The position numbers and the translations under genes are program-made. Below are positions 22,387-31,150 of a stretch of DNA of 31,150 nucleotides, one piece after another. Origin of the DNA: a virus; the IMG/VR virus record IMGVR_UViG_3300037042_002528, positions 1-31,150 of that record. One strand, given 5' to 3'. The notes beneath the pieces were generated by a model. The model searched no databases and was not told the origin of the DNA. It was given only the letters and a program-made list of their open reading frames with translations. Every line of letters starts with the position of its first letter. The stretch's first letter is position 1.

Positions 22387-22513
22387 TATATTTTGATATA
22401 TTTATAACTAATTATGTAACTAATTGATTTACAATGAGTTATGCTTAACCCGTTGATTATCAATAAGTTATGTGAAAGTACCCTATTTTTTACCATTTTT
22501 ATCATTTACAAGG

Positions 22514-22545: not shown

Positions 22546-22560
22546 TCATTTTAGGGTTGA

Positions 22561-22580
22561 TTATCCACAAGTTATCCACA
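22561..22580 (+). other. Two tandem perfect DnaA boxes
   Basis: TTATCCACA at 22561-22569 and again at 22572-22580, same orientation, 11 bp from start to start, about one helical turn. They fit the bacterial DnaA box TTATNCACA and could allow host DnaA to act at a phage origin. Confidence 0.65.
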
Positions 22581-22688
22581 TTCTGCTAACTTGTTGATTA
22601 TCAATAACTTACAGTTTAACAAAAAATAACATATTTGAACTTACCATTCATCAAGTTATATTACCGCTCATCACATAACGTAAAAAAC

Positions 22689-22756: not shown

Positions 22757-23473
22757 ATGGCAAAAAGATTTACTGACACTGATAAGTGGAAAGATGAATG
22801 GTACACAGACTTACCTAATGATTATAAAATCATTTGGCAGTACCTATTAGATACCTGTGATAATGCTGGTATCTATAAACGCAATATTAAATTGCTTAAT
22901 ATAATGTGTAATACTAATGTATCTGAAACTGATATATTAAATGCATACAAACTTAGAGTTACTCCTATCTCTGATGAAAAATGGATAATCAATAAATTTT
23001 GTGTATTTCAGTATGGACCTGATTTCTTAGAGAGTAAGAATAAAGCTGTAATCTCTGTAGTTAATAAACTAATAGAAAACAACCTCTATCAATCCTCTAC
23101 CAATACCCTATTGATACCCTATCTATCCCCTATTAATACTCTATCAATACCCTATCAATACTCTATTGATACCCCCAGAGAACAAGAACAGGAACAAGAA
23201 CAAGTTAAAGATAAATTAAAAGAACAGGTTAAAGAAGAAGTAGAATATGAATACAGTGATAGAGCTAAAGGTAATACAAAGAATATAGCAGAAAGATTAC
23301 TGGATGTATTAATGAATGCTGATTCAGATGATTTGAAATACAATAGAGCAGTAGAAGATTGGAGAGAGTTAGGTGGAATAGATGGAGTATCAGAATTATT
23401 AGAATGGGATGAATCACAAAAGAATAATTGGAAGAATAAATTAGAAACAATATACAAAATTAAAACAGCATAA
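22757..23473 (+). CDS. Replication initiator/replisome organizer candidate
   Basis: The 238-residue protein has an N-terminal domain (about 1-105) of the winged-helix type seen in phage replisome organizers: 'DTDKWKDEWYTDLPNDYKII', 'WQYLLDTCDNAGIYKRN', then 'EKWIINKFCVFQYG'. Residues 110-140 are a low-complexity linker encoded by 11-bp DNA repeats. Residues 141-165 are Gln/Glu/Lys-rich. The C-terminal part (about 170-238) is helical. In lambda O and in many replisome organizers of Gram-positive phages, origin iterons lie inside the initiator gene between two domains, and the same layout is seen here. It probably binds these repeats and recruits the helicase. No helicase or polymerase gene lies in the window. 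Confidence 0.65.
   Translation: MAKRFTDTDKWKDEWYTDLPNDYKIIWQYLLDTCDNAGIYKRNIKLLNIMCNTNVSETDILNAYKLRVTPISDEKWIINKFCVFQYGPDFLESKNKAVISVVNKLIENNLYQSSTNTLLIPYLSPINTLSIPYQYSIDTPREQEQEQEQVKDKLKEQVKEEVEYEYSDRAKGNTKNIAERLLDVLMNADSDDLKYNRAVEDWRELGGIDGVSELLEWDESQKNNWKNKLETIYKIKTA
23086..23173 (+). repeat. Eight 11-bp iterons inside the initiator gene (candidate origin)
   Basis: Eight contiguous units of exactly 11 bp with consensus CTATCAATACC: 23086, 23097, 23108, 23119, 23130, 23141, 23152 and 23163. Some carry CTATTGATACC, where TATTGATA is the reverse complement of TATCAATA. Period 11 is not a multiple of three, so selection on DNA, not on protein, is the likely cause. Spacing is near one helical turn. 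Confidence 0.75.
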
Positions 23474-23474
23474 A

Positions 23475-23693
23475 ATGAAAACACAAGCAGATTTAGCAAA
23501 TGATATCCAAAAGGATATGGAACAAATGGGTTACTTAGCAATCCCAGACTTTAGTAAGGTTGGTGACCTTATTGATACAAAAGACTATGATTTAGAAAAG
23601 AAGAATGCATATTATCAAAACCTTAGTAAGTTAGCACTATCACAGGCATTTGATGAGATGATGGATGAATTTACAAACAATAAAATTAAATAA
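23475..23693 (+). CDS. Small helical protein of unknown function
   Basis: The 72-residue acidic protein is predicted helical ('QADLANDIQKDMEQMGYLAI', 'EKKNAYYQNLSKLALSQAFD'). It starts one base after the initiator gene stops and belongs to that operon. It may be an accessory replication protein such as a loader partner; this is inference from position only. Not recognised. Confidence 0.5.
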   Translation: MKTQADLANDIQKDMEQMGYLAIPDFSKVGDLIDTKDYDLEKKNAYYQNLSKLALSQAFDEMMDEFTNNKIK

Positions 23694-23694
23694 G

Positions 23695-24267
23695 ATGAAA
23701 GTAAAACCAATACAGGGATTTAATGATTACTTTATATCAGATACAGGTATAGTATATTCAAACAAATTATCTAACAGAGCATTCTTTTCTGGTGGTATGT
23801 ATCCTATTGCACCAAAGGAGCACAACAGAGGATATTGGGAAGTAGGTTTATTTCCACCAATGGTAGGAAAGAATAAGGGATTGCGTAAATGGTTTAGAGT
23901 ACATCAGTTAGTAGCAAACGCTTTCATTAAGAAACCTAAAGCAACTTTTGATGTATATGGTAATGTAATTGAATTAATACCTAATCATATCAACGGAAAC
24001 AAAAAAGATAATAGAGTAGAGAACTTAGAATGGTTGACTCGTTCAGAGAATATGACACATGCTTATGTAGTGTTGGGTAGAGAAAACGTTACACGTCCTA
24101 TTTATTATGACGGAGTAAGATACAACTCAATCAAAGAATGTGCTATGGTAAATGGATTTAATCACAACTCACTTTGCTCCACACTATCACAACATAAAAC
24201 TTTATATAAAAAGAAATCAATCGGTTACGCTACGGATGGATTAATAAACAATAATATAAAAGCTTAA
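23695..24267 (+). CDS. NUMOD4/HNH homing endonuclease
   Basis: I choose ATG 23695 (190 codons), just after the upstream stop, over the in-frame ATG at 23665. Residues 1-25 ('VKPIQGFNDYFISDTGIVYS') fit a NUMOD4 DNA-binding motif. 'WFRVHQLVANAFI' followed by 'NHINGNKKDNRVENLEWLT' (about 67-115) fits an HNH_3 nuclease with candidate catalytic His70, Asn97-His98 and Asn110. The tail ('YNSIKECAMVNGFNHNSLC') fits a NUMOD1-type helix-turn-helix. Such free-standing homing endonucleases cut a specific DNA site in related phages and spread by repair. It lies beside the origin. It could also assist packaging, but the NUMOD parts favour homing. Confidence 0.8.
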   Translation: MKVKPIQGFNDYFISDTGIVYSNKLSNRAFFSGGMYPIAPKEHNRGYWEVGLFPPMVGKNKGLRKWFRVHQLVANAFIKKPKATFDVYGNVIELIPNHINGNKKDNRVENLEWLTRSENMTHAYVVLGRENVTRPIYYDGVRYNSIKECAMVNGFNHNSLCSTLSQHKTLYKKKSIGYATDGLINNNIKA

Positions 24268-28802: not shown

Positions 28803-31150
28803 ATGTCTCAATTAAATAAAACACAGTTAGAAGCAGAAAATCAAAGTAGCTTTCCTAATAACAATGCTGGATTTATTACTCCTCTAATATTAAGAGAGTA
28901 TAATACCGATGTTATTGATAGTACTGTTAATCAGGGAGTCTACACTACTAACTCAGCATCTTTCTCAAGCAGTATTGCATCACTACAAACTTTCAGTTCA
29001 TCATTACAAGCAACGTTTGTAACTGAAGCTGAGTTGACAGCAACCTCATCAGCATTACAGGCTGGGATTGATAGCAAATTATCTACATCATCATTTAACT
29101 CATTTAGTTCATCTAACTCAACAACGTTTACTAATTACTCAGCATCAACTGCTGCAGTGATAGCATCTATTGATGCGGTGAACGATACTATATTCGGACA
29201 ATATACGGCATCAACAAATGCATTTACTGCATCGGTTAATAGCACAACAGGAAGTTTGAATAGTAAGACTGGTTCATACGCAACTACTGGAAGTAATAAC
29301 TTTGTAGGTGGACAATCTATTAGTAGCACATTAGCAGTAAACGATTTAATATCTTCTGGTTCAGGTGGTACTAGATTACAAATATCAGCAAGTAGAGTTA
29401 TCATTGATTCAGCTTTAGATGCAACTATCAAAGGTGGCTTAATCGTAAGTGGTGGAGCATTATCTACAAATAATATAACTGAATATACAGTAGGAGCTGG
29501 TGTAACTGTAGGTGGTAAGAACTTACAAATAACAAATGAGTTAGCAGTTTCCGGTTCATTTACTGCTTCATTAAAAGAAGGATATATTTGGGTTGGAGAT
29601 TCTTTAAATAAGAGTACATTACAAATACCTACATCATCAATAGGTGGTGGGGGAAGTGGTGTTGGATTTCCATTCTCTGGTTCTGCACAAATAACAGGTA
29701 GCTTAGGTGTTACAGGTTCAGTTAGTATAATTGGTAATACTAGAGTGACTGGTAGTATTGGTGTAACTGGTTCATTAAGTGTTAGTGGCAGTAACCCAAC
29801 ACAACAATCAGGTTCATTCTCTGGTAGTTTAATTTCAAATATCTTAGACATATACACATCGGTATTACCGGCGAAGTATGTGGTAACAATAGATAGTGCA
29901 TCTTATGGCACTATATTACAATCAGGTACAGCAGACCCTAACACATTATATTTCGTTTCGGGTTCTGCAAATGGTACAAATGGTACGGCAGGTACATCAG
30001 GCACTTCAGGTGTAAATGGTAGCTCAGGTACTTCTGGATATGGTGGTGACAAATACGCATCTCAATCTACATCTTCAATTTCAATTGGAACTGCAGGACA
30101 AAGTAGAACAATCAATATATCATCATCTTTACAATGGACAGTTGGACAAGGTGTATTAGTAGCTTACGATAACGCCAATAAAATGGAAGGTAACGTAACT
30201 GCATATAGTATATCAACAGGCGTAATGACATTTGATATTGTAACACCAACAGGTGCTGGAACATACGCATTATGGAATGTAAACACATTAGGTGCAGCTG
30301 GACAAGCTGGTACTAATGGTACTTCAGGTATCAATGGTGTAGCAGGTACATCAGGCGTAAACGGAACATCAGGTGTTAATGGGACTAGTGGAGTAAACGG
30401 AACTTCTGGTTTGACGGGTACTTCAGGTCTATCAGGCACATCGGGTGTTAATGGAACATCAGGCACAAGCGGATTAGATGGAGCAGATGGAGCAGATGGT
30501 ACATCAGGCGTAAATGGTACTTCTGGATTAACAGGAACCTCAGGAATCAACGGAACTTCTGGATTGAATGGAACATCAGGCATCAATGGAGTTAATGGCT
30601 CTAATGGAACTTCTGGTGTATCAGGCACTTCAGGTCTTAATGGGACTAGTGGAGTAAACGGAGCAGATGGTAGTTCGGGTGTAAACGGAACTTCTGGAAT
30701 CAATGGAGTAGCAGGTACATCAGGTGTTAATGGAACAAGCGGTGTGAATGGTACTTCAGGTATCAATGGTATAAACGGAACTTCAGGTATTAATGGAGTG
30801 AACGGAACTGATGGTGTGAGTGGAACGAATGGAGTTTCTGGTACATCAGGTGTTTCAGGAACTTCTGGTATTAACGGAGTAGCAGGTACTTCTGGAGTAA
30901 ATGGTACATCTGGTATTGATGGTGTAGCAGGTACATCAGGTGTAAATGGAACTTCCGGTATAAATGGAACATCAGGCATTAACGGAGTAAATGGTACATC
31001 AGGTTTAACTGGTACATCAGGAACTTCTGGATTAACAACAATATTAACAATAGCTGATGAAGGTACAGCGCAAGGTTCAGCAACATTCTTAAACTTTAGT
31101 GGGAGTGGTGTTACTGCAACGGTAAGTGCTGGTACAGCATCAATCATAAT
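28803..31150 (+). CDS. Collagen-like tail fibre protein, 5' part
   Basis: The frame is open from ATG 28803 to the right edge (782 codons, no stop), so the end lies outside. Residues 1-55 form an N-terminal attachment segment ('NNNAGFITPLILREYNTDVI'). Residues about 56-160 are Ser/Thr-rich helical repeats. Residues about 165-385 are beta-rich with 'GSLGVTGSVS'-type repeats. A short Gly-X-Y patch lies near residue 391. From residue 497 to about 743, some 80 Gly-X-Y triplets follow, mostly GTS, GVN, GIN and GLN. A beta segment ('ILTIADEGTAQGSATFLNFS') then begins. Collagen-like triplets form trimeric rods in phage fibres. It probably is the main side or central fibre. Confidence 0.82.
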   Translation, partial: MSQLNKTQLEAENQSSFPNNNAGFITPLILREYNTDVIDSTVNQGVYTTNSASFSSSIASLQTFSSSLQATFVTEAELTATSSALQAGIDSKLSTSSFNSFSSSNSTTFTNYSASTAAVIASIDAVNDTIFGQYTASTNAFTASVNSTTGSLNSKTGSYATTGSNNFVGGQSISSTLAVNDLISSGSGGTRLQISASRVIIDSALDATIKGGLIVSGGALSTNNITEYTVGAGVTVGGKNLQITNELAVSGSFTASLKEGYIWVGDSLNKSTLQIPTSSIGGGGSGVGFPFSGSAQITGSLGVTGSVSIIGNTRVTGSIGVTGSLSVSGSNPTQQSGSFSGSLISNILDIYTSVLPAKYVVTIDSASYGTILQSGTADPNTLYFVSGSANGTNGTAGTSGTSGVNGSSGTSGYGGDKYASQSTSSISIGTAGQSRTINISSSLQWTVGQGVLVAYDNANKMEGNVTAYSISTGVMTFDIVTPTGAGTYALWNVNTLGAAGQAGTNGTSGINGVAGTSGVNGTSGVNGTSGVNGTSGLTGTSGLSGTSGVNGTSGTSGLDGADGADGTSGVNGTSGLTGTSGINGTSGLNGTSGINGVNGSNGTSGVSGTSGLNGTSGVNGADGSSGVNGTSGINGVAGTSGVNGTSGVNGTSGINGINGTSGINGVNGTDGVSGTNGVSGTSGVSGTSGINGVAGTSGVNGTSGIDGVAGTSGVNGTSGINGTSGINGVNGTSGLTGTSGTSGLTTILTIADEGTAQGSATFLNFSGSGVTATVSAGTASII
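30291..31031 (+). repeat. Collagen-like Gly-X-Y coding repeat
   Basis: About 82 triplets of the GTSGVN type, 741 bases in frame. The DNA varies at silent positions (aca/act, tca/tct/agc), so the protein repeat is conserved more than the DNA, which argues against very recent expansion by slippage. The antisense strand yields long Pro-rich frames that are artefacts. Confidence 0.85.

Follow-up and report, generated by a model that had tools for sequence, protein, structure and literature searches.

An array of 11-bp iterons inside a phage initiator-like gene: probable binding sites of its own product and a candidate replication origin

Why should a gene carry, in the middle of its coding sequence, a run of DNA repeats whose period does not fit the codon? 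The question is raised by a viral sequence of 31,150 nucleotides (IMG/VR record IMGVR_UViG_3300037042_002528; hereafter the window, meaning the whole stretch of DNA that was analysed), in which eight abutting 11-bp iterons are found at 23086-23173 on the + strand, inside an initiator-like open reading frame of 238 amino acids (22757-23473, + strand). Is the repeat a property of the protein or of the DNA? If of the DNA, which protein reads it, and does the array mark the place where the phage starts its replication?

The eight units begin at 23086, 23097, 23108, 23119, 23130, 23141, 23152 and 23163, with no indel between them; the array sits 329 bp into the gene and encodes residues 110-139. 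Tandem Repeats Finder (TRF) gives a period of 11, 8.1 copies, 75% matches and 0% indels over 23086-23173, and the self-match of the array at lag 11 is 59 of 78 positions, compared with 38.8 ± 4.3 (maximum 55) in synonymous recodings, a value of 59 being reached by none of 20,000 recodings of the window protein. These measures confirm the eight gapless units described in an earlier, sequence-only reading of this DNA, and its period stands as well, but the consensus it proposed is better written CTATnnATACY: the two centre bases of the unit are free, which is also why some units appeared to hold the reverse complement TATTGATA. That reading had rightly warned that sites of this type occur elsewhere, since 34 single TATnnATA sites are present in the window, unphased, the copy at 23570 being part of this background. 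No other run of at least three TATnnATA-like sites at 11-bp spacing was found in the window.

The array is under selection as DNA, as had been suspected from the letters, and both the synonymous recodings and the constraint on motif columns bear this out. Six close homologues have arrays that align in register. Synonymous sites among them differ in 9 of 364 pairwise comparisons in motif columns (2.5%), in 23 of 68 in the two centre columns (34%) and in 188 of 1572 (12%) in the remaining N-half, these counts being pooled over related pairs and thus non-independent. Columns 1-3 (C, T, A), 7-8 (A, T) and 10 (C) are near-invariant in all three codon phases, and conservation in these homologues tracks the DNA column, not the codon phase. 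Array copy number varies among relatives by three units: relative to the window, L016 lacks 33 bp, and a difference of the same size separates the longer L020-L022 from L017-L019, 33 bp being the smallest step that retains both frame and phase. A protein-level repeat is rejected on the synonymous constraint together with the rotation of the reading frame, and the linker codons hold tandem repeats constrained as DNA, a feature of iteron origins that lie inside an initiator gene.

The period extends far beyond the window. The family was surveyed through 276 genes, forming 61 clusters at 60% N-domain identity and drawn from viral contigs, two genome contigs and phage Pan5. Over 60 clusters, the linker scores high against synonymous recoding at lag 11 (mean z +2.54) and lag 22 (+1.82), every other lag between 7 and 32 that is not a multiple of three gives a mean z of about 0, and control stretches in the N-domain and at the C-terminus stay at about 0 with no lag peak. 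The best lag is 11 or 22 in 39 of the 60 clusters, 6.7 being expected. At a spacing of 11 bp, chains of at least three 7-mers are carried by 34 of about 60 cluster representatives; at spacings of 7, 8, 10, 13, 14, 16 and 17, by 0-1 each. Counted by gene, spacing-11 chains are found in 155 of 274 and, after codon shuffling, in 8 of 274, nearly half of the family genes being without a clear array under the chain criteria. Applied to lambda O, the lag test recovered the iterons, at lags 20 and 23; in TP901-1 rep, taken as a positive control, it showed no period. Pseudanabaena phage Pan5 is the only relative from a cultured phage, and by the lag test its initiator gene has no lag-11 array; no family relative was found in plasmids.

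What is repeated every 11 bp differs from one lineage to another. TATnnATA is the motif of the window's own group, and other lineages carry AGGGGCT/AGCCCCT, AATSATT, AACWGTT, AACCCTT, AACTCTT, AGCTCCT or AGAGGCT, with units frequently inverted in alternation. The same 7-mer is read in several ways, AGGGGCT being met in five of the six combinations of frame and orientation, AACTGTT and AAGGGTT in five each, and AATGATT in three, so that a single motif across frames and orientations encodes unrelated peptides. The sequence-only reading had proposed a comparison of homologues for conservation of the period despite amino-acid change, and would have been refuted by homologues with the peptide conserved and the period gone; the outcome is the reverse, since the peptide and the motif itself are lost and the period stays.

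Which part of the protein follows the motif when it changes? The N-domain, predicted to bind DNA (residues 8-107), is encoded by 22778-23077 on the + strand, and its helix at residues 94-107 (codons 23036-23077, + strand) is the segment that co-varies with the array: for residues 94-106, motif distance and sequence distance remain correlated once the rest of the domain is removed (partial Mantel r 0.254, reached in 0 of 2000 permutations), all other segments having a partial r of at most 0.10. Helix 54-68, the recognition helix, was also considered as the reader and rejected, as it shows no co-variation (partial r -0.05). The key position is residue 95 (codon 23039-23041). Where the helix opens with an Asn and, three residues on, a His (N..H), the array is AGnnnCT in 54 of 54 genes, and genes without N..H have AAnnnTT arrays in 70 of 70, the agreement of all 124 genes being obtained with a strict anchor pattern. 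On a tree of the preceding residues, each trait changes 13 times, and the supported independent pairs are concordant in 6 of 6 (sign test p 0.031). For example, L207 (VNAH, AACAGTT) and L214 (NRAH, AGGGGCT) have N-domains that are 87% identical. In leave-cluster-out prediction, column 95 gives the correct motif class in 95% of cases, and the neighbouring columns 94, 96 and 97 in 56, 38 and 60%, which makes simple physical linkage unlikely. Residue 95 lies only some 45 nt from the array, a distance so short that joint transfer could mimic co-variation, but the immediate neighbours of this residue show none.

The rule was then fixed and applied to a blind set of 111 unseen genes, 97 of them at less than 85% identity to earlier ones. 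It is obeyed by 47 of 47 genes (29 AG, 18 AA) without exception, the AA calls and 23 of the AG calls being automatic and six more AG genes, with a differing anchor, having their N..H read by eye; many genes of the set have no phased array and are uninformative. L041 (1728-2459), of the N..H type, conforms to the residue rule and breaks the spacing, its AGGGTCT sites being 12 bp apart instead of 11 and the peptide EGST being repeated. The class of the window (TATnnATA, with Asn at residue 95 and Val at residue 98) falls outside the two-way rule, which therefore gives no direct test for the window's own phage. Judged from the co-variation of residue class and motif class across the family, it is very probable that the gene's own product binds the array.

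An AlphaFold2 (AF2) model of the window protein, built with 42 relatives (mean pLDDT 74.8), predicts a winged-helix N-domain at a pLDDT of about 90, a disordered linker (residues 123-171 below 50) and a helical C-domain (residues 164-236, codons 23246-23467, + strand) presumed to recruit partners, and the iterons fall in the linker between the two domains. The model was compared with the PDB by Foldseek without any significant match, and a PDB sequence search gave nothing meaningful. A second look at structural matches returned winged-helix domains, including RepA_N initiator N-domains (4pql, 4pta, 4pt7 and 5kbj) at Z 4.7-5.0 and 18% identity, tied with other winged-helix domains; this RepA_N-type match of the predicted fold is too weak for family membership, and the RepA_N profile PF06970 is matched by 0 of 42 members at E 0.01. 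Among viral models, weak matches point to a replisome organizer, a DnaD-like replication protein and the N-terminal part of lambda O. In profile searches the window protein has no family match at a useful level, including phrog_345 (lambda O / replication initiation O-like), which is matched by only 2 of 42 relatives. Several relatives do match PHROGs annotated as DnaD-like helicase loader, replication initiation protein, replisome organizer or O-like; those of the DnaD-like and replisome-organizer type comprise phrog_1701, phrog_10469, phrog_13246 and others, none matched by the window protein. The sole NCBIfam match is the C-terminal phage domain TIGR02220, in 3 relatives. The placement given by the sequence-only reading is supported: the units fall between two parts of a protein resembling replisome organizers, the layout known from lambda O.

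A DnaB helicase gene lies directly downstream of the initiator gene in L025, L026 and L123; the window proteins scanned include no recognisable helicase or other replication protein. An HNH endonuclease gene (HNH_3, 23689-24267) stands shortly behind the initiator gene, and HNH genes also adjoin it in L104 and phage Pan5. In L003 (574-1008) the array is kept but the codons downstream of it are gone, and the frame is reduced to 144 amino acids, either by natural deletion or by assembly error. Elsewhere in the window, repeats of 45 and 63 bp (30476-30968, + strand) encode GTSGINGTSG-like stretches, probably of a fibre-like protein truncated where the window stops, and a Thr/Ser-rich repeat open reading frame (TTTSSSTTTMP) is found at 93-416.

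Immediately after the array, the gene changes in composition. A purine-rich track with a 6/12-bp period, a candidate unwinding region, extends over 23179-23241 on the + strand (TRF 23179-23204 and 23196-23241), with a purine content of 76% at 23175-23260 vs 33% in the array. Across the family, a synonymous excess, though small, is seen in this track at lags 6, 12, 18 and 24 and is absent at 3, 9, 15 and 21; microsatellite-like slippage could account for an excess at multiples of 6 bp. The encoded dipeptide varies in relatives (KD, EQ, MD, GI, GT, ND) and the 6-bp period of the DNA persists. GC skew was discarded as evidence for an origin: its sign tracks gene orientation and is thus uninformative.

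What would such an array do? Judging by its sequence and layout, it would consist of binding sites for the gene's own product and is most likely the core of the phage replication origin, with a build like that of lambda oriO or the origins of RepA_N plasmids, and a lambda-O-like or RepA_N-like origin within the initiator gene appears to be the best reading of the analysis as a whole. The winged-helix N-domain would bind the array, with the N-terminal end of helix 94-107 as the reader. With one site per helical turn (11 bp), neighbouring molecules would be placed on one face of the DNA and could pack side by side; the resulting strain on the DNA, or a filament, may open the adjacent purine-rich track of 6-bp period, and the C-domain would recruit a DnaB-type helicase, from the host or phage-encoded where present. 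The filament-like packing, the melting of the purine track, the recruitment of helicase and whatever part the DnaA boxes upstream may play are steps that we infer.

These upstream boxes are the starting point of the alternative that survives best, in which the origin proper, or a part of it, would lie in the noncoding region before the gene, leaving the in-gene array an auxiliary or regulatory task (titration, handcuffing, incompatibility). The intergenic region upstream of the initiator gene has a GC content of 26% and carries two perfect DnaA boxes TTATCCACA, 11 bp apart (22561-22569 and 22572-22580, + strand), a pair that arose in 2 of 20,000 shuffles of the region and that is kept at about -164 to -196 in L001, L003 and L009-L013, which are near relatives only. 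However, the pair is absent upstream in L004, L016-L020, L022 and L023, a single box being left in L021, and these less close relatives still retain the array, the element conserved family-wide being the one inside the gene. The same divergent intergenic region holds, in the window and its near relatives only, four palindromic repeats of about 25 bp with a TTGATTATCAA core (22417-22441, 22446-22470, 22550-22574 and 22587-22611), of the form TAAC-nnn-TTGATTATCAA-nnn-GTTA, which are probably operators or an accessory element. The sequence-only reading had tied the octamer TATCAATA, found upstream at 22458 and 22599, to the iterons, a link that proves weak: both copies fall within these palindromes, whose core varies among relatives (TTGATTTACAA, TTGATAATCAA, TTGATACTCAA), so that the octamer common to palindromes and array looks incidental and the upstream copies were rejected as the same iteron. 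An origin lying upstream is, on this evidence, unlikely.

The array might instead be an internal operator that damps transcription or translation of its own gene, with replication starting elsewhere. Initiators commonly autoregulate, and co-variation speaks for protein binding, not for replication. Against this, the combination of reader domain, linker iterons and purine track, with DnaB genes as neighbours, fits known in-gene origins (PMC5703833, PMC6316719). The array is also 329 bp inside the gene, away from the promoter, which leaves the internal operator as a distinctly improbable account. The unit length and tandem layout would suit a centromere-like (parC) or packaging site, the parC of plasmid R1 also having 11-bp repeats; such a role is very improbable, as the repeats change in step with the initiator-like protein in whose gene they lie, and none of the window proteins scanned could be recognised as ParM- or ParR-like, several small open reading frames having no family match. 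Least credible of all is a linker repeat kept for the protein or left by neutral slippage, to which the predicted disorder of the linker and the frame-preserving 33-bp steps of 11-bp slippage would be suited, since motif columns are synonymously constrained with free centre bases, wholly different peptides lie beneath one motif, and distant lineages share the period with other motifs.

An origin within the initiator gene thus remains the preferred reading, and a broader form of it can be proposed, on which we are evenly divided: a large, mostly uncultured family of phage initiators with a rapidly rewritten in-gene 11-bp origin array, in which the reader helix would change together with the array, the presence or absence of Asn three residues ahead of a His would set the second base of the site, and a filament with one molecule per turn would melt the purine track of 6-bp period. 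If this is true, each phage would have a private origin identity, with origin and specificity readable from the sequence alone, and the origins of very many metagenomic phages could be pinpointed with base-pair precision and grouped by specificity. The residue-base rule would offer a direct and cheap handle on the co-evolution of initiator and origin inside one gene. Iterons of 11 bp, with one site per turn, would also be a system for asking if initiators assemble into filaments along double-stranded DNA; for plasmid Rep proteins, a recent review called this unproven (PMC10797057).

How does this arrangement compare with known systems? Direct repeats of 11 bp bound once per helical turn are known from pMV158 RepB and R1 parC, but the former belong to a rolling-circle origin and the latter to a partition site, and, unlike the window array, they lie outside coding sequence. 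Origin repeats inside the initiator gene are found in lambda, SPP1 and RepA_N plasmids (PMC5703833, PMC6316719, PMC7466680). In lambda O/ori-lambda, and in the O of Stx phages, in-gene iterons lie as in the window between the DNA-binding and C-terminal parts and are followed by an A/G-rich track, and iteron insertions in lambda-type O genes add in-frame amino acids (PMC7466680); the lambda iterons are, however, 18 bp long and spaced by 20-24 bp, whereas the window units are 11 bp long and abutting, and the window protein has no O-family match. RepA_N initiators (pSK41, pTZ2162, and the PLE RepA of Vibrio) bind central rep repeats by a winged-helix N-domain (PMC5703833, PMC7145576), the linker encoded by the repeats being dispensable in pSK41 (PMC5703833) and the C-domain host-specific (PMC5703833, PMC7145576), but their iterons are described as inverted repeats of 8-9 bp around a poly-A tract, with no abutting 11-bp arrays described. 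In SPP1, gp38/oriL has its direct repeats within the gene for the protein that binds them, together with an AT-rich element for unwinding (PMC6316719); this phage differs by its second origin, oriR, and by its own helicase and loader, and is likened to the window by layout, not by sequence match. For 11-bp iterons in phage initiator genes and for a one-residue code, no counterpart was found in the open-licence literature. The design of an iteron origin within the initiator gene is already known, and what appears to be new is the 11-bp grammar and the one-residue code.
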